Shown in pieces: positions 1 through 34,509 of a stretch of DNA of 64,000 nt (position 1 is the first letter of the stretch; every line of letters starts with the position of its first letter). Source of the DNA: Shinella sp. H4-D48 (lineage in GTDB: Bacteria > Pseudomonadota > Alphaproteobacteria > Rhizobiales > Rhizobiaceae); NCBI RefSeq assembly GCF_022637395.1, contig NZ_CP093338.1, positions 62,001 to 126,000 on the forward strand, read 5' to 3'. The notes below the pieces were generated by a model. The model was not told the origin of the DNA. It ran no database searches and was given only the letters and a program-made list of their open reading frames with translations. The translations under genes were made by a program, and so were the position numbers.

Positions 1-132
1 GGGCAGGATGAAGCGTTGAACATGCTGCGCGCGTTCACCATCCGCCGCCTTGAGGCCGTCTGCGAAAGCCAACGCCTCGGCAAGCGTCTTGTTCATCTTC
101 CAGCTTGTGCCGACCCAGAGCGATTTTGCCAT
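1..132 (-). CDS. Triose-phosphate-isomerase-like tetrulose-phosphate isomerase, N-terminal part (cut by window edge)
   Basis: Only the first 44 codons lie in the window. The start reads MAKSLWVGTSWKMNKT, matching the first strand of the TIM barrel with the catalytic-lysine motif. The GTSWKMNKT form, rather than the GNWKMNGT of true triose-phosphate isomerases, is typical of the EryH/LerI (TpiA2) branch, which interconverts tetrulose phosphates in erythritol catabolism. That family assignment is from memory. The gene starts 14 bp after the EryC-like gene and is the last visible gene of the aco-type operon. A canonical tpiA is present separately at 20996-21766, which supports a distinct role for this paralogue. 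The rest of the active site cannot be checked here. Confidence 0.75.
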   Translation of the reverse strand, partial: MAKSLWVGTSWKMNKTLAEALAFADGLKAADGERAQHVQRFILP

Positions 133-146
133 GTCTTCTTCCTTCC

Positions 147-1079
147 TCAGCCGCGAAAACCGTTCATGCCGGTATCGATATGCGGTTCCCAATAGGCGAC
201 CGATTCCCGAATCATCTCGACCACGCGTCCATCCGTCGGTTCGCGCTCGCGGAATGACAGTTCCATGCAGATTTCGTTATCCGCGCCGCCGGCCTCCCTG
301 ACGGTGCGGATCAGCTTTTCAGGCTGGATGCGGCCGTCCTTGTTGTGTTCGGCGGTGAAAGGCCAGTGCCCGCCCTTGTTCATGGAGGACTGCTTGACGT
401 GGATGATCGGCGATTCCTGCGGGAATGCCGCCGCCCAGGCATAGGGGTCGGTATCATCGGGGTTCGAAGAGGTCACGTCGCCGTGGTCGATGTCCACGAT
501 CATGCGGAACGGTATGGCGAAACCCGCGCTCGCAAGCCGCCGGTCGAGCGTGCGGCACGCGGCAATCGTCTGGCCGAACTCACGGCCAACCGACATCGGC
601 TCCCAGAAGATGTATTTGAGCCCAGCCGCCTTGCCCTGTTCGGCCACGTCCTTCCAGCAGTCGATCACGGTTTCGATGAGTTCCTGCCGCCGCGTCTGGT
701 CGTTGTAGTCCTTCTGCGTGAACACCGCGAACTGCGAGCCCATGCCGTCCGCGCCCAGTTCACCGGCTATATCGGCCAGCGTACGGAACCATTCGAGATA
801 ATAGGCGCGCACATCGGGGTCGGAATGACCGAAATGATTGAGGCGACCGTAGGTGCTCGTCATGACGGACGTGACCCGCACGCCGGTTCGGTCCAGCGCG
901 CGGCGGAAGGCGCGAACACGGCGCGTAATGACGGAGGCCGGCCACGACGGATTGATGAACTCAGGGGTCAGCTGGATATGACCGATACGGATTCGCTCTG
1001 CGATGGTTTCGATGAGATCATCGACATCGGCGAACCGGTTGACCAGCGGATTGGTGTTGAGCGACAGCCGCAGCGCCAT
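147..1079 (-). CDS. EryC-like sugar-phosphate isomerase/epimerase (xylose-isomerase-like TIM barrel)
   Basis: This 310-residue protein resembles EryC of the Brucella/rhizobial erythritol pathway, a tetrulose-4-phosphate racemase. The start MALRLSLNTNP and the phrase IQLTPEFINPSWPA are typical. Candidate metal and acid ligands sit in FWEPMSVGREFG, IVDIDHGD, HVKQSS and CMELSFRERE, spread as expected for an AP-endonuclease-2/xylose-isomerase fold. I chose the ATG at 1079 over the upstream one at 1091 because GGAGAAGAAA lies directly before it. It sits between a HAD phosphatase and an EryH-like isomerase, so it most likely epimerises a ketose phosphate made from the imported polyol. The exact substrate is inferred; the family is fairly sure. 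Confidence 0.75.
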   Translation of the reverse strand: MALRLSLNTNPLVNRFADVDDLIETIAERIRIGHIQLTPEFINPSWPASVITRRVRAFRRALDRTGVRVTSVMTSTYGRLNHFGHSDPDVRAYYLEWFRTLADIAGELGADGMGSQFAVFTQKDYNDQTRRQELIETVIDCWKDVAEQGKAAGLKYIFWEPMSVGREFGQTIAACRTLDRRLASAGFAIPFRMIVDIDHGDVTSSNPDDTDPYAWAAAFPQESPIIHVKQSSMNKGGHWPFTAEHNKDGRIQPEKLIRTVREAGGADNEICMELSFREREPTDGRVVEMIRESVAYWEPHIDTGMNGFRG

Positions 1080-1128
1080 TTTCTTCTCCAAGAGTTATGC
1101 AATGCCGGCGCCGGCCGGCATCAGGATG

Positions 1129-1812
1129 TCATGTTTCCGCCAGCCGGCGCGCCTGTAGCGAGGCGATAGCGTCGGGCAGTTCCGCGAAGGCATCGATGAG
1201 CCGGTCGGCGCCGAGATCGTCCAACGGCGTTTTCGTATAGCCGTAGGTCAGCGCAATCACCGGCACCCCAGCTGCCTTTCCGGTTGCGATGTCGACCTCT
1301 GAATCGCCGACGAAAAGAACCGGATGCGCGCCGCCGGCCGCCGCCGCGGTTTCCGTCAGATGGCGGGGGTCCGGCTTGCCGACGCCGAAGGTGTCCGGCC
1401 CTGCAACCACGGCAAAGAAGCGCGAGAGGCCGAGGTGATCGACGATCTGTCGGGCGAAGCGCTCCATCTTGTTGGTGCAGACCGCCATCTTCCAGCCCTC
1501 ACCCGCAAGCTGCTCCAGCACGGTCTCGACATCGGCATAGGGCCGTGTCTCCTGAGCGACGCGTGCGCCGTAGATTTCGGTGAAGCGTTTGACGGCGGCC
1601 GCGCCGGCGTCGTCCTCCCATTCCACACCGCGCTCGCCCAAAGCCCGGCGCACCAGGTTCGGAATACCGTGGCCGATCAGCCTACGGGCGGTTTCGACAC
1701 CGATCGGCGCCAGCCCCCTTTCGGCCATCAGCGTGTCGAGAGACCCTGCCAGGTCCGGTACGCTGTCTACCAGCGTGCCATCGAGATCGAAAACAATCGT
1801 GCCTTTGCTCAT
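1129..1812 (-). CDS. Gph-like HAD phosphatase
   Basis: A 227-residue HAD hydrolase, subfamily IA. Motif I is FDLDGTLVDS near residue 8, motif II is the CTNK threonine region, and motif III/IV is GKPDPRH followed by VGDSEVDI. The overall sequence resembles phosphoglycolate phosphatase (Gph). The Lpd gene stops at 1822 and an AGG lies 6 nt before the ATG at 1812, which is preferred over the one at 1818. Inside a sugar-phosphate operon it may remove toxic or misrouted phosphates, such as a 2-carbon phosphate from side reactions, or dephosphorylate a pathway intermediate. The substrate cannot be read from the sequence. Confidence 0.8.
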   Translation of the reverse strand: MSKGTIVFDLDGTLVDSVPDLAGSLDTLMAERGLAPIGVETARRLIGHGIPNLVRRALGERGVEWEDDAGAAAVKRFTEIYGARVAQETRPYADVETVLEQLAGEGWKMAVCTNKMERFARQIVDHLGLSRFFAVVAGPDTFGVGKPDPRHLTETAAAAGGAHPVLFVGDSEVDIATGKAAGVPVIALTYGYTKTPLDDLGADRLIDAFAELPDAIASLQARRLAET

Positions 1813-1821
1813 GTCCATCCT

Positions 1822-3231
1822 CTATGCGTGAATCGCGCGTGAATCGGAGGCCAGCGTAGCCTCATGCAGCGCTTCCGACAGCGTGGGATGGGGAAATATC
1901 GTGTGGAGAAGATGCTCGCGCGTCGCGCCCATGGTCAGCGCAAGGGAAAAGACGGGCACGAGCTCGCTGACCGAGGGACCGATCATGTGCGCGCCGACGA
2001 GCCGCCCGCTCACCTTGTCGAACAGGACTTTGACGAAACCGTCTGTTTCGTCAATGGTGACCGCCTTGCCATTTCCGCGAAAAGCGAAGCGGCCGATATC
2101 GACGACAAGCCCTTTTTGAAGAGCGGCCTCTTCCGTCAGGCCAATGGAGGCGACCTGTGGCGTGGCGAAAATGCAGGACGGGACCGGCCCCATGCCAGCG
2201 TGCAATCCACGTCCCGCGATCGCCTCGACACAGCGCACGCCCTCATGCTCGGCCTTGTGTGCCAGCATGGGCGGGCCGGCAACGTCGCCGATGGCATAGA
2301 GTCCGGAAATGCTGGTCCGGCCGGCCGCATCGGTAGCGATTGTGCCGTTGCGCAGGGCGATCCCAAGCTTCTCCAAGCCAAGCCCGTCGACATTTGCCAC
2401 GACACCCGCGGCGGAAAGAAGCTTATCGGCTGTGATTTCGCGAGGACCATCGGGTTGGCTGAAGCGCACCGTCACGCCGGCCACATCGGGCGAGACCTGC
2501 GAAATTTCAACGCCGGTCAAAACCTCGATGCCCCGCTTGCGCAGGGACTTGCTCATCTGTTCGGCCACCTCGGCGTCTTCCTGCGGCAGGATACGAGCCA
2601 GACGCTCGATCAGCGCCACTTTCGCGCCCAGCGAACTGTAGAGGCTTGCAAACTCCACACCGATGGCGCCGCCACCCACAATGGCAATGGAAGCCGGCAG
2701 CGCAGCCGGCGTCATCGCATGATGATAGGACCAGATGCGTTCGCCGTCGGTAACGATGCCGGGCAGGCGGCGCTCGGAGGCGCCAGTGGCGATAATGATA
2801 TGTGCCGCATCGTAATCGCCGGGTGCAAGCGTGCCCTTCGGCGCCTCGCCCTCAACGGCCGTGACGCGCACCATGCCGGGCGCCAGGATTTCGGCGCCCC
2901 CCCAGATGACGTCGACCTTGTTCTTGCGCAGCAGGAACTGCACACCGGCATTGAGCTGGCCAGCGACCATGCGCGAGCGCGCGACAACGGCCGGAAAATC
3001 GACGGAGGGCGTTTCGCTGCGAATGCCGAAGGTAGCAGCATGACGGACCTCATCCAGAAGGGCCGCAGAATGGAGCAGCGACTTCGTGGGAATGCAGCCC
3101 CAGTTGAGGCAGACGCCGCCGAGATGCCTGCGCTCGACAACCGCCGTCCGCAGACCCAGCTGCGCCGCACGAATGGCCGCGACATAGCCGCCCGGCCCAG
3201 CGCCGATCACAATGATATCATAGGCCGGCAT
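1822..3231 (-). CDS. lpd: Dihydrolipoamide dehydrogenase (E3)
   Basis: A 469-residue flavoprotein that reoxidises the dihydrolipoyl group of the E2 protein with NAD+. The FAD-binding GAGPGG is at the N-terminus, the redox disulfide is GGVCLNWGCIPTKS, the NAD-binding motif is VGGGAIGVEF, the second FAD motif ends in AIGDVAG, and the active-site base is in FPHPTLSEALHE. Length and motif order are those of normal Lpd. There is no extra lipoyl domain. AAAGGACTGCC precedes the ATG. It is encoded 82 bp downstream of the E2 gene in the same operon, so it is likely dedicated to this complex. The gene name refers to the family; a housekeeping copy is expected elsewhere. Confidence 0.93.
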   Translation of the reverse strand: MPAYDIIVIGAGPGGYVAAIRAAQLGLRTAVVERRHLGGVCLNWGCIPTKSLLHSAALLDEVRHAATFGIRSETPSVDFPAVVARSRMVAGQLNAGVQFLLRKNKVDVIWGGAEILAPGMVRVTAVEGEAPKGTLAPGDYDAAHIIIATGASERRLPGIVTDGERIWSYHHAMTPAALPASIAIVGGGAIGVEFASLYSSLGAKVALIERLARILPQEDAEVAEQMSKSLRKRGIEVLTGVEISQVSPDVAGVTVRFSQPDGPREITADKLLSAAGVVANVDGLGLEKLGIALRNGTIATDAAGRTSISGLYAIGDVAGPPMLAHKAEHEGVRCVEAIAGRGLHAGMGPVPSCIFATPQVASIGLTEEAALQKGLVVDIGRFAFRGNGKAVTIDETDGFVKVLFDKVSGRLVGAHMIGPSVSELVPVFSLALTMGATREHLLHTIFPHPTLSEALHEATLASDSRAIHA

Positions 3232-3313
3232 GCGGCAGTCCTTTCGAGGGATATTGGCTCGACGCGGCCACGCACCAGCGAGAGGTGCGTGGCACGGCCG
3301 GGAGGCGAAGCGC

Positions 3314-4639
3314 TCAGCCGGCGCTTCGAATGGCCTGCGACACGAGGCGCCCGACGAGTGGAGCGGCTTCGAGTTGCGGCAGATGCCCGACCTGCGAGAG
3401 ACGATGCAGCCCCACATGCGCCGGCAGCGCATTGCTGTGCTCTGCCGGTACGATGCGATCCTGCTCCCCGACGATGACGCGGGCGGGCCCGCCGAAACGG
3501 TTCAGAGCATCGCGCACGGAGAAGAGCTGCGTGCTTCCCGCAAAGACACCGGCCGCAAGCCGCGTCTGGTTCGCCACCATACCCGTTCCTTCGCGACCGG
3601 AAAGTGTCGCGCGGACCAGGACACCGGGCAGGCTCGCCGGTTCATGAACCAAAAGGCCAAGCCAAGCCTGAAGCGCCGCCTCGCTGTTGGCAGACAGGAA
3701 CCCGCTCACATAATCGCCGTTGATCTTGGGTCCGAGGCCGGCCGGCGCAATCAGCGTCAGCGACCGCACGTCGAGATCCCCGCCGCCTGCGATGGCCGTG
3801 GCGACTGCCGCGCCGAGCGAATGGCCGACCAGATGCAGTCGTTCGATCTTCTCGGCGGCAAGTGTGGCTCGTACGACGGAGACAAGATCGTCGAAGCTGT
3901 CGGCCGATGCATTCGCCGCGCCACCGTGACCGGGAAGGTCGATCGCGAGGATCGGATTGGTCACGCTGATATGGCCGATGAACGACCGCCAGGCGGAAAG
4001 TTCGGCGCCGAAGCCGTGGATGAACAGCACCGGGTCTCCCACACCGGCTTGCAGCGTCTTGAGGACGCTGCGGCCGCTTGAAGCCGTGGAAGCGGCGCCG
4101 CCGAAGTTGACGAGCGTGCCCGAGCCTGGGGAGCGCTTGAATGCCTCCACGTCGCGCTTCACCACAGCACCGCGTGGGCCGGAGCCGGACACCCGCTTTA
4201 TGTCGATGCCGGCGGAGGCGGCAATCCGTCGGGCAAGCGGCGAGGAACCCCCGGCGCCCGATTTCAGGAAGGCCGTCTCGTTTTCGCGGACGGACTCCCG
4301 CGGGAAGACGGCGAGGTTCTCCTTGGCCGTCTCGACGATGGACTGGGCATCCTCGCCGGAGAAAGCTGCGACAGGAGCGGCGGCGACTTCCAGCTTCTCG
4401 CCCTCTTCGCCGACCATCATGAGGGGTTCAAGAACAACCCCCATGTCGCCGACATTGTAGCGTATCTCGAGGATCGTACCCGTCTCGAAGGCCTCGACCT
4501 CAAAGACCGCCTTTTCGGATTCGACTTCAGCGACGATGTCGCCCTTTTTGACCTTGTCGCCGACCTTGACGAGTATAGCCGTGATCTTGCCTTCGGTCAG
4601 GTCCTGACCGACCTGCGGCATCAAAATGGGACGTGCCAT
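3314..4639 (-). CDS. Acetoin-dehydrogenase-type E2: lipoyl domain, E3-binding domain and alpha/beta-hydrolase domain
   Basis: A 441-residue E2 component. Residues 1-78 form a lipoyl domain with the lipoylation site ESEKAVFEV (Lys43). Residues 131-168 look like a peripheral subunit-binding domain (SPLARRIAASAGIDIKRV, then GPRGAVVKRDV). From residue 192 an alpha/beta-hydrolase fold follows, with LFIHGFGA, nucleophile Ser274 in VGHSLG, Asp394 in GEQDRIVP and His419 in QVGHLP. AcoC proteins of acetoin dehydrogenase use this hydrolase domain, whereas PDH/OGDH E2s use a CAT-type acyltransferase with an HHxxxDG motif, which is absent here. The acyl group transferred to CoA is therefore probably acetyl or similar, derived from an acyloin rather than a 2-oxo acid. 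Lipoylation may depend on the local lipA. Confidence 0.85.
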   Translation of the reverse strand: MARPILMPQVGQDLTEGKITAILVKVGDKVKKGDIVAEVESEKAVFEVEAFETGTILEIRYNVGDMGVVLEPLMMVGEEGEKLEVAAAPVAAFSGEDAQSIVETAKENLAVFPRESVRENETAFLKSGAGGSSPLARRIAASAGIDIKRVSGSGPRGAVVKRDVEAFKRSPGSGTLVNFGGAASTASSGRSVLKTLQAGVGDPVLFIHGFGAELSAWRSFIGHISVTNPILAIDLPGHGGAANASADSFDDLVSVVRATLAAEKIERLHLVGHSLGAAVATAIAGGGDLDVRSLTLIAPAGLGPKINGDYVSGFLSANSEAALQAWLGLLVHEPASLPGVLVRATLSGREGTGMVANQTRLAAGVFAGSTQLFSVRDALNRFGGPARVIVGEQDRIVPAEHSNALPAHVGLHRLSQVGHLPQLEAAPLVGRLVSQAIRSAG

Positions 4640-4652
4640 GACGGTTCTCCTC

Positions 4653-5873
4653 TCAAGCCACGCGACGGTGGAGCGTTTCGACGGACTGCGCGACGAAATC
4701 CACGGTCTTGCGGGTGGCGGCTGCGAATTCCGCTGCCGTTGCAGCGAAGGCGCCAAAGCGTGAGAACTCCTCCGGCTTCATGCCGTCGAATTCATAGGCC
4801 TGGCGGAAATAGGGAATGCGCAGCAGCTTTTCGATGAGCTCCGCCGACGCGTCCGTATCGATTGCGGCAGGATCGAAATCCGGCAGCCGGTCCTCGGCCT
4901 TCATGAGCTGCGCGATGTAACCGGGCGGGCAGGTATAGACGAAGTCGCCGCCGGCGATCAGCGCGATATGGCCGCTCGATGCCTTGCCGCCCTCCCCTTC
5001 GTCCTGCACGCGCATGGAGCATTGCAGCATCTTGCTGGGATGGTTTCGATCCTTTCCGTAGCGATAGGCACGCTTCAGCACCGCCATCTCGCCTAGCAGG
5101 ATTTCCTCCGGCGAAAGCGCAATGCCACGCGCATCGGCCTGGGCCTTGAGGTCCCCGACATTCCCGAGACGTGAGGACATGTGGGTGATGACGGAGCGCC
5201 ATTTCGACAGATCGACACCCGCTGCCTTCGCCCGCTCAAGGCCGCGTGAAACGGCGTCCATGCAGGCGACATATTGCGGAACGGTGAAGGACGTCGTGTT
5301 GTTGGTGGAGATGCCGCGGGCCGTCAGCTCTTCGATGACCTCATAGCCTTCCTTCGAGCCGGGGATCTTCACCATGACGTTCGGCGCGATCTCTGCAAGC
5401 TGAAGCCCCTGCTCCAGCATGCGCGTCTTGTCCGTGACGAAACGCGGGTCGACCTGGCCGGAGACATAGCCGTACTTGCCGCCTGATGTATCGAAGACCT
5501 TGCGGATCATCGCCGCGCCGCGGCGCACGACATCGAGATAGACCGCCCAGTAGATATCCTCGACATCATCAGCGTTGCGTGTCGATGCGATCTTGCGGAT
5601 CTCGTCCGCCCAGAAGGCCGGATCGGCCTGAATCGCCTGCAGCGAGAGCGGCGGGTTGGTCGTGACGCCGCGAAAACCCATCGTGCCGTCACGGGCAGCA
5701 GTTTCCGCGTCGAAGAGGCGCGACAACTGCGCCTCCCAATCCGCCCGCTTTCCGGCAGGCGCATCCTTCAGGACAGAGGCTTTCCAACCTTCGTAGATCA
5801 GGGGTGAGGAATCCCACCAGATTTCACAGTCCGGATTTGTGGCTGCGAGCTTTTCCAGCACATGCAAGGACAT
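4653..5873 (-). CDS. Transaldolase-like protein, 406 residues, inserted between the E1 and E2 genes
   Basis: A class I (Schiff-base) transaldolase-family protein. Visible family signatures are the strand-1 aspartate in IWWDSSPL (Asp21), TTNPPLSL at 71-78 (TTNP motif), the Schiff-base lysine Lys169 in VMVKIPGSKEG, and NNTTSF at 191-196. It is longer than TalB (about 317 residues) and clearly divergent. Transaldolases move a dihydroxyacetone unit from a ketose phosphate to an aldose; some relatives act as simple aldolases. The gene lies 22 bp after the E1 beta gene and 13 bp before the E2 gene, inside the dehydrogenase operon. This implies that it makes or uses the same intermediate. The specific reaction is unknown. 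Confidence 0.8.
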   Translation of the reverse strand: MSLHVLEKLAATNPDCEIWWDSSPLIYEGWKASVLKDAPAGKRADWEAQLSRLFDAETAARDGTMGFRGVTTNPPLSLQAIQADPAFWADEIRKIASTRNADDVEDIYWAVYLDVVRRGAAMIRKVFDTSGGKYGYVSGQVDPRFVTDKTRMLEQGLQLAEIAPNVMVKIPGSKEGYEVIEELTARGISTNNTTSFTVPQYVACMDAVSRGLERAKAAGVDLSKWRSVITHMSSRLGNVGDLKAQADARGIALSPEEILLGEMAVLKRAYRYGKDRNHPSKMLQCSMRVQDEGEGGKASSGHIALIAGGDFVYTCPPGYIAQLMKAEDRLPDFDPAAIDTDASAELIEKLLRIPYFRQAYEFDGMKPEEFSRFGAFAATAAEFAAATRKTVDFVAQSVETLHRRVA

Positions 5874-5895
5874 GGTCGTCTCCCGATCTCTCTTC

Positions 5896-6900
5896 TCACT
5901 CAGCGGCTTGCGCGAGCGGCTTCGAATGAAGCGTGCGGCGCACGGCAAGCACGATGTCGTCCACCTGTGGAACGCTCGCCTTTTCAAGCTCGAGATTGAA
6001 CGGGATCGGAATGTTGAGGCCCGCGACGATCTCGATCGGCGCGTCCAGCTGGTAGAACGCCTCTTCCTGGATGATGGACGCGATGTCCGAGGCGACGCCG
6101 CCGCGGCGCACGGCCTCCTGAACGATGACGGCGCGGTTGGTCTTGGCGACCGAGCCGAGGATCATATCCTTGTCGAGCGGCACGAGCGTGCGCGGATCGA
6201 TCACCTCGGCATCGATGCCTTCGGCAGCCAGTTTCTCGGCCGCTTCCAGCGTACGGGGGATCATGTTCGACCAAGCGATCAGCGTCACATCCTTGCCCGG
6301 GCGCTTGATATCGCCCTTGCCGAACTCGATGACGTGCTCGCCATCGGGAACGAGGCCCTTTGTCATGTAAAGATGCTTGTGCTCCAGGAACATGACGGGG
6401 TCGGACTGGCGCAGCGCATATTTCAACAGGCCTTTCGCGTCCGCAGGGGTCGACGGCATGACGACCTTCAGACCGGGAATGTGGTAGAACAGCGCCTCGA
6501 GGCTCTGCGAATGCTGTGCCGCCACACCGCCGCCCGTACCGCCCTGCGTGCGCATGACGAAGGGAACCCGACCGTCGCCGCCGGTCATCAGACGGAACTT
6601 GGCGGCCTGGTTGACGATCATGTCCATACCGAGCATGGCGAAGTCGATATAGAGAATTTCCACGATCGGCCGGGCACCGGCAATGGCCGCGCCCACGCCG
6701 ACGCCGATCATGCCGGCTTCGGCAATCGGCGTGTCACGCACGCGCTTGGGACCATATTTCGACAGCAGCCCTTCCGTGACCTTGTAGGAGCCACCGCGTT
6801 CGGCAATACCTTCGCCGATGATGAAGACGGTGCTGTCGCGTTCCATTTCTTCGTCGATCGCCTCGCGCAGCGCATCGCGGTACATGATTTCTCTGGCCAT
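5896..6900 (-). CDS. Acetoin/pyruvate-dehydrogenase-like E1 beta subunit
   Basis: The 334-residue beta subunit of a two-subunit thiamine-diphosphate E1. The N-terminus MAREIMYRDALREAIDEEM and the phrases GEGIAERGGSYKVTEG, DTPIAEAG and QGGTGGG are typical of the transketolase-like pyrimidine-binding domain. The C-terminal transketolase domain contains VIDPRTLVPLD and IVQEAVRRGG. It forms an alpha2beta2 enzyme with the gene product just upstream (21 bp gap) and hands the acyl unit to the lipoyl E2. AcoB of acetoin dehydrogenase is the closest type I recognise, given the AcoC-like E2. A clear RBS, GGGGAGG, precedes the ATG. The true substrate is not determined. Confidence 0.88.
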   Translation of the reverse strand: MAREIMYRDALREAIDEEMERDSTVFIIGEGIAERGGSYKVTEGLLSKYGPKRVRDTPIAEAGMIGVGVGAAIAGARPIVEILYIDFAMLGMDMIVNQAAKFRLMTGGDGRVPFVMRTQGGTGGGVAAQHSQSLEALFYHIPGLKVVMPSTPADAKGLLKYALRQSDPVMFLEHKHLYMTKGLVPDGEHVIEFGKGDIKRPGKDVTLIAWSNMIPRTLEAAEKLAAEGIDAEVIDPRTLVPLDKDMILGSVAKTNRAVIVQEAVRRGGVASDIASIIQEEAFYQLDAPIEIVAGLNIPIPFNLELEKASVPQVDDIVLAVRRTLHSKPLAQAAE

Positions 6901-6921
6901 GGTGTGATCCTCCCCGTCTGC

Positions 6922-7908
6922 TCAGTAGGCTTCGACGAATTCGTTGAACTCGGCCAGCGTGATCTCACGGCTCGCCTTGGAGAATTCGACGGCATCCTCG
7001 AATTCCTGCTTGATCTCGTTTTCGATCGCTTCGATTTCGGCCTGGTCGAGACCCACGATCTCGACGAGAGCATTGCGCGCGCGGTCGACCGGGTCGCGTT
7101 CCTTGTAATAGGCCAGCGTGTCGGCCGGCATATACTTGCCGGGATCGTTCACATGGTGGCCCATGTGGCGGTAGGTCTTCGCCTCGATGAGGATCGGGCC
7201 TTCTCCACGGCGGCACTTTTCAACCGCATCCTGCATGAGGTGATAGACGGCGAGTGAGTCATTGCCGTCGACCTGATGGCTTTCGACGCCGATGGCGAGG
7301 CCGCGCTTGTAAAGATCGACGTCGCGCGTCGATTCCTCGATACGCGTTGAGACGGCATATTGGTTGTTTTCCACGACGAGCACGTAGGAAAGGTTCCAGA
7401 TCGCCGCCAGATTGAGTGATTCCAGAAACGTGCCGTTGTTGGAGGCGCCGTCCGTCGAGAAGGTCACCGTAACGGCATCGTTACCCTTGATCTGGTTGGC
7501 GAGCGCCGCACCGACGCCGAGCGGCGTACCGGCGCCCACGATGCCGTTTGCGCCAAGATTGCCGGCCCTGATGTCGGCGATGTGCATGGAGCCACCGTAG
7601 CCGCGGCAGTAACCCGTCTCCTTCTGCAGGAGTTCGGCCACCATACGCTTCACATCGGCACCCCAGGCGATGCAGTGGCCGTGCCCGCGGTGGGTCGATG
7701 CGATGAAATCGCCCTCCTGCAAGGCGGCGCAAACGCCCGTCGCGATGCCCTCCTGTCCGAGATAGGGATGGAAGTATCCACGGATCAGCCCCTGACGATA
7801 GAGCTTGATGCCTTCGGACTCGAAGACACGGATTTTGTAGGCCGTCCTGAAAAGTTTTTCCAGAAGCTCCCGCGAGGGTGCATTCGCCTTCTGAGCCTGC
7901 GCTGCCAT
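6922..7908 (-). CDS. Acetoin/pyruvate-dehydrogenase-like E1 alpha subunit
   Basis: The 328-residue alpha subunit of a thiamine-diphosphate dehydrogenase. Recognisable parts are STHRGHGHCIAWG at 71-83, KETGYCRGYGGSMHI, and the ThDP/Mg motif region 151-182 beginning TDGASNNGT and ending VVENNQYAVST. In most relatives the motif begins GDG; here the first glycine is replaced by threonine (STDGASNNG). KTYRHMGHHVNDPG corresponds to the phosphorylation loop of PDH E1 alpha. It is the first gene of the operon, with RBS GGGGAGAGAG upstream and a 440-bp divergent promoter region shared with the RpiR regulator. With E1 beta, E2 and E3 it would decarboxylate or cleave a substrate and transfer an acyl group to CoA with NAD+ reduction. 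Confidence 0.88.
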   Translation of the reverse strand: MAAQAQKANAPSRELLEKLFRTAYKIRVFESEGIKLYRQGLIRGYFHPYLGQEGIATGVCAALQEGDFIASTHRGHGHCIAWGADVKRMVAELLQKETGYCRGYGGSMHIADIRAGNLGANGIVGAGTPLGVGAALANQIKGNDAVTVTFSTDGASNNGTFLESLNLAAIWNLSYVLVVENNQYAVSTRIEESTRDVDLYKRGLAIGVESHQVDGNDSLAVYHLMQDAVEKCRRGEGPILIEAKTYRHMGHHVNDPGKYMPADTLAYYKERDPVDRARNALVEIVGLDQAEIEAIENEIKQEFEDAVEFSKASREITLAEFNEFVEAY

Positions 7909-8348: not shown

Positions 8349-9260
8349 ATGACTGATGCTCGACCGTTGAGCGACCTTAAGCAGAGCGATCTTCTGGAAC
8401 GGATTCAGGAACGCTATGGCACGCTCAGGAAATCGGAGCGCATCGTCGCGGACTTCCTGCGGGAAAATGCCGGACGGCGTCTCGATTCATCCATTACGGA
8501 ACTCGGCCGCACGCTTGGCGTCTCGGAAGCCACGATCAGCCGCGTAAGCCGGGCGCTTGGCTATGACGGCTATTCGGACATGAAACTGTCGCTTGCCGAG
8601 GGCGCACGCGCACGCGCGAGCTTCGTCAACCTGCCGCTCGAGATCGAAGATACGGACTCCCTGATCAGCACATCGAGCAAGCTTGCCAATCTTCTGATTG
8701 CCGGCGTCGACGGCACGCAGCGCATGCTGGACGCCCACAGGCTCGAGCAGGCCGTGGAAGCGTTGCGCAATGCGCGCAAGATCGTCTTCGTCGGCGTAGG
8801 GGGTGCGGCGGCGATCTGCGACGAGGCCGCCCATATGTTTATGAAGGCGGGCTTCGAGGCCACCAGCCTGCGCGACGGCTATACCCAGACGATCGTCGCC
8901 GCGACGATGACCGAGAAGGACGTGATGGTCGGCATCTCGCATACCGGCACCACCGAGACCGTAACGGACGCTTTGCATCTGGCACGTGAGCGAAAGGCAA
9001 CGACGATTGCCATCACGAGCAATGTCGGTTCGGAGGTCGGGCGCGCTGCCGATGTCGCACTGACCACCTGGAGCGCGGGACAGCAGCTCGTCCCGCTGCA
9101 CGGCGACTTTCTGGAGGGACGGCTCAGCCAGCTGTTTTTGATCGACTTGCTTTATGTCGGCACGATCTTTCGTGCGGGCGAAGAACCGGCCAAGGCGCTG
9201 AAGGTCACAGGCGAGGCCCTCGAGAAACGCTATCGGCATAAAGGCGGAAAGGCCGGCTGA
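8349..9260 (+). CDS. RpiR-family transcriptional regulator (HTH plus SIS domain)
   Basis: A 303-residue regulator. Residues 1-80 are an HTH_6 domain (KSERIVADFLREN, then LGVSEATISRVSRALGYDGYSDMK). Residues from about 130 on form a SIS sugar-phosphate isomerase fold (IVFVGVGGAAAICDEAAHMF, VGISHTGTTETV, TIAITSNVGS). SIS domains of this family bind phosphosugars, so the effector is probably an intermediate of the surrounding pathway. It is divergent from the dehydrogenase operon and convergent with the phosphatase/aldolase operon. Shared GTAAAAAAT-like sequences in three nearby promoters make it the best candidate for the local regulator. Whether it activates or represses cannot be told. Confidence 0.9.
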   Translation: MTDARPLSDLKQSDLLERIQERYGTLRKSERIVADFLRENAGRRLDSSITELGRTLGVSEATISRVSRALGYDGYSDMKLSLAEGARARASFVNLPLEIEDTDSLISTSSKLANLLIAGVDGTQRMLDAHRLEQAVEALRNARKIVFVGVGGAAAICDEAAHMFMKAGFEATSLRDGYTQTIVAATMTEKDVMVGISHTGTTETVTDALHLARERKATTIAITSNVGSEVGRAADVALTTWSAGQQLVPLHGDFLEGRLSQLFLIDLLYVGTIFRAGEEPAKALKVTGEALEKRYRHKGGKAG

Positions 9261-9301: not shown

Positions 9302-10003
9302 TCAGGCGTCGATGAGTGCGCGGCAAAAAGAGATATCGACGTTTCCTGCATCCAGATCATCCACGACCCGGTCAGCGAGCGAAAAATCCTCCTCGCCGGT
9401 ATAGGACGAGATCGTCACGACGCAGTGCATGCCGGCCGCTTTGGCCGCGCGCAGCCCGTTGTTGCTGTCCTCGATCACCACGCAATGACCCGGATCGAGC
9501 CCGAGCGTCCGGGCGGCGAGGTTGTAGATATCCGGCGCCGGTTTCTTGGCGGCGACCACGTCGCCCGCGAAAACTCTAATCTTCTCGGACCTTTCAGGTC
9601 CAAGCATCACATCGACCACCGCCTGGACGGCCTTCTCGTTCGAGGTCGAGCAAACCGCGAGCGTGATACCGTTTGCGACGGCCTCGTCTACGATGCGTGC
9701 GATGCCAGGCCGAAGCGGGAGACTGCCCTCTTCGATCAGGCGCATGAAGATTGCGGTCTTGCGCTTGTGGATCGTCGCGATCAACGCGTCCCGGTCCTCG
9801 GTGCCCGCGGGCCAGCCCGTCTCATCGAAATGACGCCGCATGCGTTCCTTGCCGCCAGCGGTCAGAAGCAGTTCGCCATAGCGCTCGACCGACCAGACGC
9901 AGTCTATGCCGAGTTCGGCAAAGGCCTCGTTGAAGGAAACGCGGTGTCCGTCGCGCTCCGTATCGACGAGAACGCCGTCGCAATCGAAAATCAGAGCCTG
10001 CAT
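9302..10003 (-). CDS. CbbY-like HAD phosphatase / beta-phosphoglucomutase family
   Basis: A 233-residue HAD-IA protein. Motif I is MQALIFDCDGVLVDTERDGHR, cut here to its core FDCDGVLVDTE; a cap domain follows, then VCSTSNEKAV (motif II), AAKKPAPDIY (motif III) and VIEDSNNGLRAA (motif IV). This is the pattern of CbbY, which in Calvin-cycle bacteria degrades xylulose-1,5-bisphosphate. No RuBisCO or other Calvin gene is present, so here it more likely removes a bisphosphate or a misphosphorylated ketose made by the nearby aldolase or kinases. It starts 4 bp after the aldolase stop codon, so the two are surely co-transcribed. Confidence 0.82.
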   Translation of the reverse strand: MQALIFDCDGVLVDTERDGHRVSFNEAFAELGIDCVWSVERYGELLLTAGGKERMRRHFDETGWPAGTEDRDALIATIHKRKTAIFMRLIEEGSLPLRPGIARIVDEAVANGITLAVCSTSNEKAVQAVVDVMLGPERSEKIRVFAGDVVAAKKPAPDIYNLAARTLGLDPGHCVVIEDSNNGLRAAKAAGMHCVVTISSYTGEEDFSLADRVVDDLDAGNVDISFCRALIDA

Positions 10004-10007
10004 CGTT

Positions 10008-10883
10008 TCACGCCCCCGCAGCATGCGCGGCCTTGCCGGCCGATCCGAAGATGCGGATCATGTCAACGACGTCCTTCTTCATGGCGTCATATTGTCCGAC
10101 GATGAAAGGAAGCGGCTCTTCCAGCTTGGGCTTTTCCGCACGCACGCCGATAAAGCCTTCGATGAAGCGATGTTTGTGCATGGTCGAGATGTTGACCTTC
10201 GCGCAGCCGCCGGCGATGCAGCGGTCGAACTGTTCCTGGCTGAGCCCCGTCCCGCCATGCAGCGCAATCGGCACGGAAATCGATTGCGTGATGCGCTCGA
10301 GAAGATCATAGGCGATCTTCGGCTGCCCTTTGTAGAAACCATGTGCCGTCCCGATGGCGGGCGCGAAGACTGCGAGGTTCGGCATGTCCTTCACGAAAGC
10401 GAGGCATTCGTCGTAGTTTGCAAGGATCGCGGCATCCTCCGCCACGAACTTGTCGTCCTCGACGCCACCGATCGCACCGATCTCAGCCTCCAGCCCGACG
10501 CCGGCCTGTTCGGTCATGCGGTAGATTTCCTCCGAGCACGCCTTGTTCTCGGCAAAGGGCAGCGAGGAACCGTCGAACATGACCGATGACCAGCCGGCAT
10601 CGATACAGCGACGGATCACGTCCGCATCACTGCAATGGTCGAGATGAAGCGCCACCGGAACATCGACATCATCCGCCAGCATGCGCACCCAGGTGGCGAT
10701 CGCTTTGTAGCCCCAGTGCTTGATCGTCTTGACCGAGACCTGCACGATGATTGGCGCATCCAGCTCCGCCGCGCCCTCGATGATCGAGCGCACGCTGTTG
10801 TAATCGATCATGTTGAAGGCGGCGATGCCGTAGCGGGCCGCCTGCGCACGCTTCAGCATCGGACCCATAGTGACGAATGCCAT
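10008..10883 (-). CDS. Class II (zinc) fructose-bisphosphate/ketose-bisphosphate aldolase family
   Basis: A 291-residue class II aldolase. Zinc and catalytic motifs are visible: ALHLDHCSD (catalytic Asp and first Zn histidine), GLEAEIGAIGG, the second Zn histidine in GTAHGFYKG, and the phosphate-binding loops LHGGTGLS and KVNISTMH. Such enzymes cleave a ketose 1-phosphate or 1,6-bisphosphate to dihydroxyacetone phosphate and an aldehyde. The ATG at 10883 has GGAG 9 nt upstream and is preferred over the GTG at 10892. The length and the gene context (RpiR regulator, polyol transporter, CbbY-like phosphatase) suggest a pathway-specific aldolase rather than the glycolytic one. The real substrate is unknown. 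Confidence 0.87.
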   Translation of the reverse strand: MAFVTMGPMLKRAQAARYGIAAFNMIDYNSVRSIIEGAAELDAPIIVQVSVKTIKHWGYKAIATWVRMLADDVDVPVALHLDHCSDADVIRRCIDAGWSSVMFDGSSLPFAENKACSEEIYRMTEQAGVGLEAEIGAIGGVEDDKFVAEDAAILANYDECLAFVKDMPNLAVFAPAIGTAHGFYKGQPKIAYDLLERITQSISVPIALHGGTGLSQEQFDRCIAGGCAKVNISTMHKHRFIEGFIGVRAEKPKLEEPLPFIVGQYDAMKKDVVDMIRIFGSAGKAAHAAGA

Positions 10884-11097
10884 GACTTTCACTCCACCTG
10901 CCGGTTTTCGCCGCCTACGCCATGCGACGAAGCAGCACTATCGCTACAATCTCCCTAGCAAGAAGATGTATTCTTGTAAATTATTTTCTTAGCCGGAGCT
11001 GCGAAAAATCATTTGTCACACGCAGTTTAGCGCATAACTCAAAGAAGCCGCGACGCGATGCGCTCTCAACAGTCCCATCAATCTTCAAAATCATGAA

Positions 11098-11177: not shown

Positions 11178-12899
<1,722 letters not shown>

Positions 12900-12981
12900 G
12901 GTATCCTCCCTAAGGTTTTGCGATTGCGACTGCATGTGCGAAGGTCCCTCCACTCTCTCCCGGGACCTTCATTCCTTTGCC

Positions 12982-17443: not shown

Positions 17444-18985
17444 TCAGCTTGCACAGGCAAGCGCCTGATCGCCGCTGCCGGCCGACCAGAGATCCGCCAC
17501 CATGTCGATGGCCGTGAGATAGGTCTTGTATTTCTGGCTGAGCACGGCCGCGCGTGCGCCATCCGGCTCGAGCCGCTGTTCGACATGGACCATGTTGGAG
17601 ATCGCGGTTGCCACATCCGGGTAGACGCCCGTTGCCACGGCCGCGCAGATCGCACCGCCCTTGGCGCCGAATTCACTGCCATTGGCGATTTCGACAGGTA
17701 GGCCGAGACCGTCGGCAAACATCTGCGCCCAGACACGACTGCGCGTGGGACCGCCCGCGAGCCTAATGACCTCGGGGTTGGCCGCATCAGGTCCTGTCAG
17801 CAGGTAGGTCATGTCGTAGCGATGGGCGAAGACCACGCCCTCATAGACCGCGCGCACAATATCGGGAAGCTGCACGCCGGCGCGAAGCCCGAGGAAGCCG
17901 CCCGGCGCACCGCGCGGGCCGTCATAGAGGAACGGGAAGAACAGGATGCCGTTGGTTCGGTCAATGGCGCCGGCGACGAGTTCGTTGCACACATCATAGA
18001 TGCTACGCCCCTCCAGCACCGCGCGCTGCGCTTCCGCCGACAGCATGGTCTTGCACAGCCATTCGAGATTGCTGGCCGAGGTCGGCGTCGCCGTCGTTGC
18101 CAACACCTGCCCATCGACGGGATAGGGTGTCTGGATCGTCGGGAGCGGGTTAAGTGCGGGCTTGCGATGGACCGTCGAATGGATGCTGAACGTGCCGGCA
18201 ACCGCTGCAAGCTGCCGGGAACTCACGGCACCAGACGCGAGGGCACAACCGACGACATCATACACGCCGCGCACGACGGGCGTTCCTTCACGAAGTCCGG
18301 TCAGGGCCGCAACGGATGCTGGAATATAACCTACCACCTCGACGGAAGGCCGAACCGGCGGAAGCTTTTCGAGCCACCCCTGCATGCCGGCGGCCTCGAA
18401 GGCCTCCCGGGAAATATCGGATTTCGTGACGTTGATGATGCCGGCACAGCCGCCGTCCGTAGGGTCCGTCGAGATATCGCCGCAAAGCCGCATGCGCAGG
18501 AAATCCTTGCAGGGCAGCATGTATCTGGCACGCCGCATCACCTCCGGCGCATTCTCCTGGAACCAGGCCATGATGGGAAAGGTCTGGCCCGGCCAGACCT
18601 GCTGCTCGATATGCCGCGAGACTTCGGCGGCAAGTCCAGAGCGCTTCCAGCGCTCGATAAGCGGTATGGAACGCGTATCGGTGGAGACCAGCCCGTTGGC
18701 GACCGCATTACCTTCCGCGTCGACGAAATACGCACCGCCACCATAGCCTGACGGCGTGACCGCAATGATGTCCGCGGGGTTGGTTCCGGTCTTTTCAAGT
18801 AGCACGCGCAGGCACTCGCAGGTCGCGCGCCACATGACGTCGGCGTCCCGCTCGGTCCAGCCCTCTTGGGGCAAAAGCATGATGTTTGGGCGACGCTCGC
18901 AGGCGAGCTCGTTTCCCTTGACGTCGAACAACACGACCTTGGTCATGGTGCCACCGGCGTCGATGCCGATCAGGCGTTCCCGCAT
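17444..18985 (-). CDS. FGGY-family polyol/sugar kinase
   Basis: A 513-residue two-domain kinase. The N-terminal phosphate-binding loop is LIGIDAGGTMTKVVLFD; DTRSIPLIERW and GYIPASVAALTGL lie in the middle; the C-terminal nucleotide-binding part includes IRLAGGPTRSRVWAQMFAD and EFGAKGGAICAAVA. The family phosphorylates glycerol, erythritol, xylulose and similar. Being first in the transporter operon and divergent from the EryB/GlpD-like dehydrogenase, it probably phosphorylates the incoming polyol. The ATG at 18985 has GAGGAGGAACC directly upstream, so the longer frame to 19027 is rejected. EryA-like and ribulokinase/xylulokinase-like roles are both possible. Confidence 0.85.
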   Translation of the reverse strand: MRERLIGIDAGGTMTKVVLFDVKGNELACERRPNIMLLPQEGWTERDADVMWRATCECLRVLLEKTGTNPADIIAVTPSGYGGGAYFVDAEGNAVANGLVSTDTRSIPLIERWKRSGLAAEVSRHIEQQVWPGQTFPIMAWFQENAPEVMRRARYMLPCKDFLRMRLCGDISTDPTDGGCAGIINVTKSDISREAFEAAGMQGWLEKLPPVRPSVEVVGYIPASVAALTGLREGTPVVRGVYDVVGCALASGAVSSRQLAAVAGTFSIHSTVHRKPALNPLPTIQTPYPVDGQVLATTATPTSASNLEWLCKTMLSAEAQRAVLEGRSIYDVCNELVAGAIDRTNGILFFPFLYDGPRGAPGGFLGLRAGVQLPDIVRAVYEGVVFAHRYDMTYLLTGPDAANPEVIRLAGGPTRSRVWAQMFADGLGLPVEIANGSEFGAKGGAICAAVATGVYPDVATAISNMVHVEQRLEPDGARAAVLSQKYKTYLTAIDMVADLWSAGSGDQALACAS

Positions 18986-19251
18986 GGTTCCTCCTCCTCG
19001 CCGACGCGCCGTCTCCACCCGGCACATGGACCATTCGGTCTCATCGGCTTTGTTCCTCGTGAGCTAGGCTATTGGACGAGCCTGAATTGTCAATCGAATT
19101 CGTAAGGAAATTTTTTACAGAAATAAATAACTGATATTACGTGATATTTTTTACATTCCGGTTCGCGACCAAAACATGACGCCTTTCAAAAGTAATAAAA
19201 TGCCATTATAGCAGCCCCATCTTCTGAGGATGACGGTCAAGAGGGGCTTTC
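18986..19251. promoter_or_regulatory. Divergent promoter region with two GTAAAAAAT-type sites
   Basis: The 266-bp gap separates the kinase/transporter operon (leftward) from the dehydrogenase-tpiA-lipA operon (rightward). It is AT-rich in the middle. The imperfect palindrome GTAAGGAAATTTTTTAC sits at 19102-19118, and a second copy GTGATATTTTTTAC at 19141-19154. These match the site at 11098-11108. Two adjacent copies between divergent operons is the arrangement expected for a shared regulator, most simply the local RpiR protein. Confidence 0.5.
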
Positions 19252-20985
19252 GTGCGAAACAGAACAGAAGCAATCGCCGCGTTAAGGGCTGCCACAGCCG
19301 CACAACCGGTCCTTATTGTCGGCGGCGGCATCAACGGGATCGGGCTCTTCCGTGACCTGTCCCTGCAAGGCGTGCCCTCCGTCTTGGTGGACAAGAGCGA
19401 CTTCGCCTCCGGCACCAGCGCGGCGCCCTCGCGGCTCATCCATGGCGGGCTTCGTTATCTCGAGACGGGCGAGTTCGCGCTGGTGCGCGAATCGGTCATC
19501 GAACGCAATCACCTGGTGCGAAACGCCCACCACCTCGTCAAACCCCTGCCCGTTTGGGTTCCAGCCTTCAGCTGGTTCGGCGGGCTGTTTTCCGCAGGCC
19601 TGCGTTTCCTCAAGCTGAAGAAAACGCCGGGCGCCAAGGGAATTGCGGTGGTAAAGCTGGGGCTGGTGTTTTTCGATCGCTTTGGGCGGGCCACGAGCGC
19701 GATGCCAGGCCATCGTATCGTTTCGCGCGGCGAACTACGGACCCGGATGCCCAGCCTTTCGCAGCGGATCAAGGCGGTGGCCGAGTATTATGACGCACGG
19801 TTGACCCACCCGGAACGCCTCGCGCTGGAACTCATCAAGGACGCCGAACGGGATTGCCCCGCATCCATCGCCGTACCCTATATGGCGCTGGCGGGTTCAG
19901 ATGGCGATCAGATCATCCTGCGCGACGAGATCAGCGCAGAGGAGATTGCACTGCGGCCACGTCTCGTCATCAACTGTGCGGGCCCCTGGGCAGACGAGGC
20001 AAATCGCAAACTCGGCATCGAAGGGCGGCTGATCGGCGGCACGCGCGGTTCGCATATCGTCCTGCACCGGCCTGACATCGCCCGCCAGCTGGGCGATGGC
20101 ATGCTCTACTTCGAGACCCGGGACTTCCGCGCGTGCCTCGTCTATGCGCTCGACGCGGAGCACATCCTCCTCGGCACCACCGACATTCGTGCAAGCGATC
20201 CTGATACGGTGCGCTGCTCGGACGAGGAAATCGACTATCTCTTTGATGTGCTGGAACAGATCATGCCCGGCGCGGCCGCACGGCGCGAAGAAATCGTCTT
20301 CACCTATGCCGGGGTTCGTCCGCTTCCCTATAGCGGTGAAGGAACGACCGGCGCGATCAGCCGCGACCACTTCCTTCGGGATTTCGAGCCGGAGGGCAAT
20401 CGGCGCTTCCCCGTGTCAACGCTGGTCGGCGGCAAGTGGACCACCTATCGCGCCTGCGCAGAACAGATCGCCGATACGGTTCTGACGCGCCTTGGCGTGA
20501 GCCGCCGATGCAGCACGCTGGATGTGCCGATCGGCGGAAGCGCTGGGCTCGACAACGACGCCCAAAAACGCCTTCCCTTCATCCATGGGCTGATGGCCCG
20601 CCACGGCCTCAACGAGGCCGTCTGCACAGCACTCGTCGAGCGGTACGGCAGCCAGGCCGATGATGTCGCGCGTCATGTTTCGGCCGATGGCGGCGAGACG
20701 GTGGGTGAGGCCTCGCTCTATCGCGCAGGCGAAATCCGCTGGATCGTGGCCGAGGAGCGCGTCACCAGACTTTCCGATATCGTGCTGCGCAGAACGCTCA
20801 TGCCGTTTGAAAACGCCGTCACGCGGGCGAGTCTTGATGCCATCGCGCGTATCGCCGCAGATGCGCTCGGTTGGGACAGGCAGCGCCGCGAGGCGGAAAT
20901 TGCCGCGACGGTAACGATGCTCGACGAGCGGTATCGCGTGGAATTGCTGCCGGTGCCAGCCGCCCTCCGTTCCAACGCTTCCTAG
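19252..20985 (+). CDS. FAD-dependent polyol-phosphate dehydrogenase, GlpD/EryB-like
   Basis: A 577-residue flavoprotein of the glycerol-3-phosphate dehydrogenase family. The FAD motif [16 protein letters not shown] is followed by [22 protein letters not shown] (core [11 protein letters not shown]), later [30 protein letters not shown] and VGGKWTTYR. It oxidises a polyol phosphate to a ketose phosphate and passes electrons to the quinone pool at the membrane. EryB of erythritol catabolism belongs to the same family. The GTG at 19252 is supported by AAGAGGGG upstream. The operon (dehydrogenase, tpiA, lipA) has a 10-bp and a 1-bp spacing. A second GlpD-like protein at 30651-32174 belongs to another operon. 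Confidence 0.88.
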
Positions 20986-20995
20986 GGATTCTCAC

Positions 20996-21766
20996 ATGAC
21001 ACCCGCTATCAGACCCCTCCTCGCCGGCAACTGGAAAATGAACGGCACGGCCAGCGCACTTGCGACCCTCGACGCAATCGCCGAGGGGATCACGCGCCTG
21101 CCGGACGTCTTCGACACTTTACTCTGCACTCCGGCAACGCTTGTCCACCGAGCCGCCTCCTCAGCAAAGGCAAGCCGGATCCAAATCGGCGGTCAGGATT
21201 GCCATCCCGACCAGGTTGGTGCGCATACCGGCGATGTCTCCGCTGATATGCTTGCCGATTGCGGCGCCCAGTTCGTCATCGTCGGCCATTCAGAGCGGCG
21301 GACGGATCACGCGGAAACGGATGGACTCGTTTGCCGCAAGGCGCTGGCGGCCATCGCCTCGGGCCTGACCGCCATCATCTGCATTGGCGAGACCGGCGGA
21401 GAGAAGGCCGAAGGCAAGACGCTTGCAGTCGTCGAGCGGCAACTCCTGAAATCCGTGCCGGATAGCGCGACAGCGCAAAACGTCGTTATCGCCTATGAAC
21501 CGGTCTGGGCGATCGGCACCGGCCTCACGCCTACCGTCGAGGATGTCGCGTCGGTGCATCGCTTCATACGCGACCAGCTGGTCGCGCGGTTCGGCGCCGA
21601 GGGTGCCGGGATGCGTCTGCTCTATGGCGGGTCCGTAAAGGGCGCCAATGCGCACGAGCTGATGGCGATCGATCATGTGGACGGTGCGCTTGTCGGCGGC
21701 GCGAGCCTGAAGGCGGAGGATTTCCTGGCGATTGCAAGCGCATTTCCTGTTCTGGCAGAGGCCTGA
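20996..21766 (+). CDS. tpiA: Triose-phosphate isomerase
   Basis: A 256-residue canonical triose-phosphate isomerase: [11 protein letters not shown] with the catalytic lysine, IVGHSERR with the electrophilic histidine, [10 protein letters not shown] with the catalytic glutamate, and LLYGGSVKG for phosphate binding. It interconverts dihydroxyacetone phosphate and glyceraldehyde 3-phosphate, which fits an operon whose aldolase or dehydrogenase products enter at the triose level. This is a different paralogue from the EryH-like gene at the left edge. A related tetrulose-phosphate activity cannot be excluded, but all standard TIM motifs are intact. Confidence 0.92.
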
Positions 21767-21767
21767 A

Positions 21768-30567: not shown

Positions 30568-30650
30568 GGTTCCTCCTCCCATGCGGGCCTTTCGGGCACC
30601 CGCTTTCCCACTTATTCCTCCGCGCGTCTCTCCCGGCCGCGGCGGGCTCC

Positions 30651-34337: not shown

Positions 34338-34509
34338 CATGTCCTCCCAGACTTGTTAATGGCAATTTTCACGCACCCATGCAAAATGTCAACAACATTT
34401 TTCATTGTTGCATGAAATTTGCCAGAACCGCTGCGGGCAGGCGCTCCTGCGAAACTGGACTTGCGGATAAAAAGCTGCCAAATGAGGAGAAAGGAGGCCA
34501 ACGACGCTG
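34338..34509. promoter_or_regulatory. Divergent promoter with inverted-repeat operator candidate
   Basis: This 172-bp gap lies between the egsA/araM-like operon and the SorC regulator. It holds CAACAA at 34390-34395 and TTGTTG at 34405-34410, flanked by ATG-type bases so that the two halves read ATGTCAACAA and (inverted) ATGCAACAA. The spacing suits a dimeric regulator on one face of the helix. The obvious candidate is the adjacent SorC-family protein. Confidence 0.5.

Follow-up and report, generated by a model that had tools for sequence, protein, structure and literature searches.

Gene content of the locus

The window analysed here, 64,000 nucleotides of the Shinella sp. H4-D48 genome (G000:C2:62001-126000, where G000 is this genome and further G and L labels denote the genomes and loci compared), begins with an operon for a thiamine diphosphate- and lipoate-dependent dehydrogenase complex that also encodes a protein of the transaldolase/fructose-6-phosphate aldolase family, hereafter TAL. 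According to open reading frames (ORFs) and family profiles, the genes for E1α, E1β, TAL, an AcoC-type E2, E3, a Gph-type HAD phosphatase and an EryC-like protein constitute one operon on the reverse strand, confirming this part of the gene order in the initial annotation. The EryH-like gene placed behind them was also found, but only about 129 of its bases lie inside the window; the remainder lies to the left (L003:14368-15129). An RpiR-type regulator diverges from the operon, followed by genes for a CbbY-type phosphatase, HAD2, and a class II aldolase. Based on these genes and their relatives, we tentatively propose that the operon specifies a complex that oxidatively cleaves an acyloin-type ketose phosphate, R-CO-CHOH-CH2-OPO3, with recapture of the resulting C2 phosphate as xylulose-5-phosphate.

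The E1 and E2 components resemble those of acetoin dehydrogenase, and the E2 scored above the cut-off of the corresponding AcoC model. In an alignment of six clade members and ten outsiders, E1α was distinguished by the motif GYFHPYLGQE and by TDG where the outside relatives have GDG. In a tree of E1β sequences, which included no verified AcoAB sequence, the TAL-linked proteins formed one clade of 34 rows with support of 99/93. The choice between acetyl and glycolyl transfer was also sought in the E1 residues; the clade motifs gave no decision. Genes resembling acoX or acoR were not recognised by eye in the window, its left flank or the loci read, no profile search for these two having been made. 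A second E1-E2 set of the same genome (L133:7846-11116, on G000:C3) lies beside genes resembling an amino-acid ATP-binding cassette (ABC) transporter, and its AcoC-like E2 scored 306.3 bits against the cut-off of 307.

Table 1. The E1 operon and neighbouring features, in positions of the window
Feature	Position	Strand	Basis
E1α, thiamine diphosphate-dependent dehydrogenase	6922..7908	−	PF00676, 246 bits
E1β	5896..6900	−	PF02779/PF02780
TAL, transaldolase/fructose-6-phosphate aldolase family, 406 aa	4653..5873	−	PF00923, 114 bits
E2, AcoC type	3314..4642	−	NF011457 'acetoin dehydrogenase E2', 324.6 bits, cut-off 307; lipoyl PF00364, E3-binding PF02817, α/β-hydrolase PF12697
E3, dihydrolipoyl dehydrogenase	1822..3234	−	TIGR01350, 524 bits
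Gph, phosphoglycolate phosphatase-type HAD	1129..1818	−	TIGR01449, 191.8 bits, cut-off 180
EryC-like, tetrulose-4-phosphate racemase type	147..1091	−	PF01261; 62% identity to own EryC
EryH-like TpiA-family isomerase, start only	1..129	−	NF000722, 408.6 bits; 72% identity to own EryH
SIS-domain regulator of the RpiR/MurR family, transcribed away from the E1 operon	8349..9260	+	PF01418, PF01380
HAD2, CbbY-type phosphatase, predicted xylulose-1,5-bisphosphate phosphatase	9302..10024	−	298 bits to AtCbbYA 4uav
FBA2, class II (dihydroxyacetone phosphate-dependent) ketose-bisphosphate aldolase	10008..10892	−	TIGR00167 over cut-off, TIGR01859 under; PDB ketose-bisphosphate aldolases
ABC substrate-binding protein	11178..12953	−	ORF, no NCBIfam match; ortholog so annotated beside a DUF2160 gene
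ABC permeases	13415-14305, 14376-15239	−	sugar/UgpA/UgpE/UgpC-type NCBIfam matches under cut-off
ABC ATPases	15243-16313, 16326-17408	−	sugar/UgpA/UgpE/UgpC-type NCBIfam matches under cut-off
FGGY1, FGGY carbohydrate kinase	17444..19027	−	XylB and autoinducer-2 kinase models under cut-off; best PDB match autoinducer-2 kinase; 26% identity to EryA
GlpD-like FAD polyol-phosphate dehydrogenase	19252..20985	+	NF008899, 245.6 bits, under cut-off 360; 29% identity to EryB
Second TpiA-family isomerase	20996..21766	+	TIGR00419, 170 bits, cut-off 130.6; 38% identity to EryH-like
Second lipoyl synthase, LipA paralog	21732..22736	+	TIGR00510, 365 bits

Beyond the aldolase gene lie transport, kinase, dehydrogenase and lipoate synthesis genes (Table 1); we take the substrate-binding protein to be GlpV-like. 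On C1 the genome carries a further lipA and a canonical transaldolase gene; elsewhere (L004) lies a canonical ery operon that includes EryI. Three Shinella plasmids encode TAL proteins of 96-98% identity, and an annotated plasmid of Shinella sumterensis has these genes in identical order. At 29089-35505 the window holds another polyol-type locus, in which a XylB-like kinase, a GlpD-like dehydrogenase, a HAD protein, a glycerol-1-phosphate dehydrogenase-like gene and a SorC-type regulator were recognised by eye.

Conservation of the operon

To define the conserved part of the operon, genome contigs were scanned with TAL; the best 80 of 150 relatives were kept as loci. Those carrying E1β at an identity of at least 60% were designated E1 loci (36 of 80), and further thresholds were set by us for each gene, at least 50% for EryC and at least 37% for Gph. 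Within the 36 E1 loci, E1α was found in 35, E2 in 34, the RpiR regulator in 33, HAD2 and the aldolase in 24 each, the Gph-type HAD near E1 in 22, E3 in 18, transketolase in 12 (by cluster), EryC in 11 and EryH in 6; one EryC gene, that of L056, lies on the opposite strand. Many E1 loci end at contig or flank borders. In the 26 that span at least 15 kb, HAD2 was present in 20, the aldolase in 20 and Gph in 18. The eight genes of the initial annotation are thus ruled out as a single conserved unit, given the counts for EryC and EryH. The conserved core is the RpiR regulator with E1α-E1β-TAL-E2, usually accompanied by the aldolase and HAD2 and by the Gph-type HAD.

The placement of the 406-residue TAL between E1 and E2 proved not to be peculiar to this strain. 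Of the 34 E1 loci with a matched E2, 33 have E1β, TAL and E2 side by side on a single strand, an order that therefore does not reflect chance; the exception, L099, is due solely to the splitting of its TAL match and its E2 match into two pieces each. Judged by record titles, members of Rhizobiales, Rhodobacterales, Rhodospirillales and SAR116 are among the hosts, as is one metagenome-assembled genome (MAG) of Fibrobacterota (L100). The other 44 TAL loci, mostly from sphingomonads and deltaproteobacterial MAGs and some on short or broken contigs, had no E1β at the 60% threshold. A survey of 385 genomes of the class with E1β (E ≤ 1e-115) matched the genome studied here alone, so the association of E1 with TAL rests on the TAL-seeded loci together with G080 and G115, which have TAL, and G097 and G060, which do not.

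These data bear on the most ordinary account of the locus, in which an unremarkable dehydrogenase for acetoin or a 2-oxoacid is simply co-regulated with tetritol catabolism, while TAL, the aldolase and the isomerases feed carbon into the pentose phosphate pathway. The homology of E1 to the E1 of pyruvate dehydrogenase and the AcoC score of E2 are in keeping with it. Yet TAL separates E1β from E2 in nearly every locus, the E1 clade has motifs of its own, and an acetoin- or pyruvate-specific partner was not recognised in the loci read. We consider this account quite improbable.

Elsewhere TAL has other neighbours. In L078, L080, L082 and other sphingomonad loci, it lies near genes that by eye resemble those of protocatechuate 4,5-cleavage (lig). 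In L104, L106 and L108, it adjoins aminotransferase-, corrinoid-protein- and MttB-like genes, with a GntR-type regulator in two of them (names by eye).

The transaldolase-family protein

The AlphaFold model of TAL had a mean confidence score (pLDDT) of 94, and its best match in the PDB was the transaldolase of Corynebacterium glutamicum (3r5e), with a TM score of 0.67 by query length. In agreement with the PF00923 fold, the presumptive Schiff-base lysine, K169, was invariant in 30 sequences, as were D21, N73, Q140, N191, R235 and S286. Mapped by motif, the catalytic Asp, Asn and Lys and the Ser and Arg of the phosphate site are retained. The catalytic Glu is not: the invariant Q140 takes its place, as judged from SGQVD in TAL and STEVD in the canonical transaldolase of the same genome. 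The position of Phe178, likewise placed by motif, is occupied by Met; in TalB numbering the catalytic Glu is E96. E96Q variants of Escherichia coli TalB are represented in the PDB, and such variants have aldolase activity. The two replacements suggest altered, perhaps aldolase-like, chemistry, and we predict that TAL either transfers a dihydroxyacetone unit to a phosphorylated aldehyde or uses such an aldehyde in an aldol reaction.

The aldolase and CbbY-type phosphatase

HAD2 matched AtCbbYA (4uav) with 298 bits and 138 of 230 residues identical (60%), and RsCbbY with 180 bits and 103 of 211 aligned residues identical; no further PDB family exceeded 54.1 bits. It keeps 80 of the 87 positions common to these two proteins and on this basis is a CbbY-type sequence. 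In one account (PMC10212915), Arabidopsis CbbYA is described as a selective phosphatase of xylulose-1,5-bisphosphate (XuBP) that yields xylulose-5-phosphate, and XuBP is synthesised enzymatically by aldol addition of dihydroxyacetone phosphate (DHAP) to glycolaldehyde phosphate. Each of the 24 E1 loci with at least one of the two genes has the aldolase gene directly before HAD2, and the two also adjoin in L142/L143 and L157/L158. Because HAD2 is CbbYA-like and the aldolase is always next to it in these loci, the pair is most simply predicted to capture glycolaldehyde phosphate, with DHAP, as xylulose-5-phosphate.

The association of HAD2 with E1 extends beyond the loci themselves. Twelve E1 loci lack HAD2; four are on short contigs and lay outside the genome-wide check, and in five of the eight checked the gene occurs elsewhere in the genome (L044, L055, L061, L064 and L066). 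That HAD2 is nearly always present with E1 where this can be checked is a solid observation. RuBisCO large-subunit matches were missing from 8 of 17 genomes tested, and all eight carry HAD2, six within the locus and two elsewhere; the Shinella genome has a RuBisCO-family gene at C2:331933. At L077:193-1122, in one of the genomes that gave no HAD2, what by eye is a class I (DhnA-type) aldolase gene adjoins those for E3 and a Gph-type HAD.

TAL itself can be absent when the aldolase and HAD2 are present. In G097 and G060, two genomes of one genus (L153 and L154), the operon reads RpiR / E1α-E1β-E2-E3-aldolase-HAD2, and no TAL ortholog turned up in searches of the two genomes (one weak match, E 8e-4, in G097; none in G060). 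The reverse situation occurred only in the genomes of L048, L077 and L100. Free interchange of TAL with the aldolase-HAD2 pair was considered and ruled out: four of six loci that appeared to have TAL only (L055, L061, L064 and L066) have HAD2 elsewhere in the genome. Among the 385 class genomes, TAL was found in three and HAD2 in four, all three TAL genomes having HAD2. The hypergeometric probability of this co-occurrence was 4e-7 by genome and 8e-5 by genus, values that are rough on account of shared ancestry and thresholds of our own choosing.

Clues to the substrate

By their identities to the proteins of L004 (Table 1), the EryC-like and EryH-like proteins are isomerases of the EryC/EryH type, whereas FGGY1 and the GlpD-like protein are too distant to be orthologs of EryA and EryB. 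FGGY1 and the FGGY kinases of other loci were also tried as a guide to the substrate; they matched several sugar kinases, all below cut-offs. According to a study of the erythritol pathway (PMC11508834), EryC is a tetrulose-4-phosphate racemase, EryH isomerises D-3-tetrulose-4-phosphate to D-erythrulose-4-phosphate, and EryI converts the latter to erythrose-4-phosphate. A search with the EryI of the same genome (E ≤ 1e-5) gave no EryI/RpiB match in the E1 loci, the window or its left flank; L004 itself and L139, a DRL-type locus described below, were the only loci matched. The most likely substrate in this genome would therefore be D-erythrulose-4-phosphate, or a close analogue, formed from a tetritol-like polyol: EryC and EryH lead there, EryI was not found nearby, and cleavage would give the very compound that the aldolase and HAD2 are predicted to handle.

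The initial annotation had linked a lipoate complex of acyloin type to sugar or polyol catabolism, and the neighbouring genes support that link. Its proposed cleavage to an acyl-CoA and an aldehyde phosphate also fits them, but HAD2 and Gph, which indicate a C2 phosphate, do not favour its suggested substrate, a 1-deoxyketose phosphate. Were a 1-deoxyketose phosphate cleaved, acetyl-CoA and an aldehyde phosphate would result, and TAL could form the substrate from hydroxyacetone. Acetoin-type E1 and E2 transfer acetyl groups, Q140 recalls the TalB variants, and the DRL protein of L129 (with those of L130, L138 and L139, alike by annotation) suggests 1-deoxyxylulose-5-phosphate in those operons. 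However, the operon showed no recognisable gene for forming hydroxyacetone or for deoxysugars, the TAL-type E1β clade stands apart from the DRL type, and EryC and EryH indicate a tetrulose. This route does not by itself account for the CbbY-type phosphatase, although 1-deoxytetrulose-4-phosphate as substrate would. On balance, a 1-deoxyketose substrate is unlikely.

Proposed pathway

From gene content, order, conservation and homologies, which were observed directly, we infer all of the substrates and reactions that follow. The polyol would be imported by the ABC transporter and phosphorylated by FGGY1, after which the GlpD-like dehydrogenase would oxidise the carbon beside the phosphate. The EryC-like protein would epimerise the product and the EryH-like protein would shift its carbonyl. 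E1, with thiamine diphosphate, would break the C2-C3 bond of the ketose phosphate and free glycolaldehyde 2-phosphate, while lipoyl-E2 and E3 would oxidise the acyl part and pass it to CoA, giving glycolyl-CoA if R is CH2OH. The freed aldehyde could be captured in two parallel ways: the class II aldolase would join it to DHAP, forming XuBP that HAD2 would dephosphorylate to xylulose-5-phosphate, and TAL would place a dihydroxyacetone unit onto it, forming xylulose-5-phosphate directly. The Gph-type HAD would remove phosphoglycolate arising by oxidation, and transketolase, encoded in the operon of some relatives, would carry xylulose-5-phosphate onward. In loci without EryC and EryH, FGGY2 and possibly the VOC protein may supply a like ketose phosphate.

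Several observations weigh against this proposal. EryC and EryH occur in a minority of loci, and elsewhere the substrate rests on FGGY2 and the VOC protein. The model offers no explanation for the bypass of EryI, and none of the operon's products was recognised as an enzyme of glycolate use. The genomes of L048, L077 and L100, which have E1 and TAL and are of MAG or single-cell type and possibly incomplete, gave no HAD2 at E ≤ 1e-30. In two sphingomonads (G454 and G534; L157 and L158), which are two of the three TAL genomes of the class survey, TAL is unlinked from an aldolase-HAD2-DhaL-DhaK operon (Dha names by eye), and neither genome has an E1β ortholog at E ≤ 1e-115; L079 and L111 combine TAL, aldolase, HAD2 and DhaKL with no E1β within the locus. 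Because such sets occur without E1β, the module is not exclusive to E1. In G213, the fourth class genome with HAD2, that gene has no adjoining aldolase. Finally, the aldolase and TAL would equally fit erythrose-4-phosphate as the aldehyde, since Brucella brings this compound into central metabolism by Tal or Fba, as related in the erythritol study (PMC11508834).

The last point supports a different route, in which E1 would cleave a hexulose phosphate, such as fructose-6-phosphate, to glycolyl-CoA and erythrose-4-phosphate, or the latter would arise elsewhere, and TAL and the aldolase-HAD2 pair, acting on sedoheptulose-1,7-bisphosphate, would pull it into the pentose phosphate pathway. In addition to the Brucella precedent, the co-occurrence of TAL with the aldolase and HAD2, with TAL sometimes missing, is consistent with this route. 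It is disfavoured mainly by HAD2, a member of an XuBP-selective family, and by Gph, which suggests a C2 phosphate; the lack of an EryI-like gene near the E1 operons also speaks against it. We regard erythrose-4-phosphate as an improbable product.

Cleavage of a tetrulose phosphate thus remains our preferred, if tentative, reading. More speculatively, tetrulose phosphates might yield glycolyl-CoA and free glycolaldehyde phosphate, XuBP and its phosphatase might be genuine catabolic steps outside the Calvin cycle, and lipoate-dependent acyloin cleavage might serve generally as a means of splitting deoxy-, branched and tetrose sugars, as DRL-type complexes could cleave 1-deoxyxylulose-5-phosphate derived from methylerythritol. 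The breakdown route seems undescribed, with variants in other Alphaproteobacteria; among the open-access matches listed, judged by title and the start of the abstract, no paper on the operon or the pathway was found, which is weak evidence of novelty. If correct, the proposal would bring to sugar catabolism a further C-C cleavage that parallels transketolase but is oxidative, and would make glycolaldehyde phosphate and XuBP productive intermediates. It would also account for CbbY-type phosphatases in genomes with no RuBisCO-family match and tie lipoate supply, through the second lipA, to polyol use.

Related operons and comparison with known systems

The statement in the initial annotation that AcoC-type complexes are confined to acetoin use was too strong, as related E1/E2 sets, with E1β of 52-55% identity, occur in other sugar-type operons. 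L129 has an E1-E2-E3 operon with a DRL-family oxidoreductase (PF21135, 227 bits) and an extra lipA; in L130, L138 and L139, the DRL-type protein was assigned by annotation and position only. These four loci, in so far as they were read, have ABC/PfkB genes or a glucitol-type phosphotransferase system (PTS) for uptake, with E3 in two and lipA in one. The E2 is of CAT type in L129 and annotated as AcoC in L139. By analogy, a route from 2-C-methylerythritol through 1-deoxyxylulose-5-phosphate to acetyl-CoA is possible for these operons. They share with the TAL-type operon an acyloin-type E1 and a sugar-type setting, but they have the DRL protein in place of TAL, a PfkB kinase or the PTS, and a separate E1β clade.

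The operon resembles the acetoin dehydrogenase complex (AcoABC with Lpd) in its thiamine diphosphate-dependent E1α and E1β, three-domain AcoC-type E2 and E3. It differs in its sugar-phosphate context, the TAL gene after E1β, an E1 clade with its own motifs and the lack of a recognised acetoin gene nearby. With the EryABCHI erythritol pathway of Brucella and rhizobia it shares EryC-like and EryH-like isomerases, a kinase and a GlpD-type dehydrogenase; here, however, identity to EryA and EryB of the same genome reaches only 26% for the kinase and 29% for the dehydrogenase, EryI was not found, and the product would pass to E1-E2-E3. TAL has the fold of its family and the Schiff-base Lys, Asn, Ser and Arg motifs, but it is 406 residues long and has Gln for the catalytic Glu and Met for Phe178. 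Lastly, HAD2 and the Gph-type HAD recall CbbY and CbbZ of cbb operons, whereas HAD2 here stands outside any cbb operon, adjoins an aldolase gene and occurs in carrier genomes of which 8 of 17 have no RuBisCO large-subunit match.

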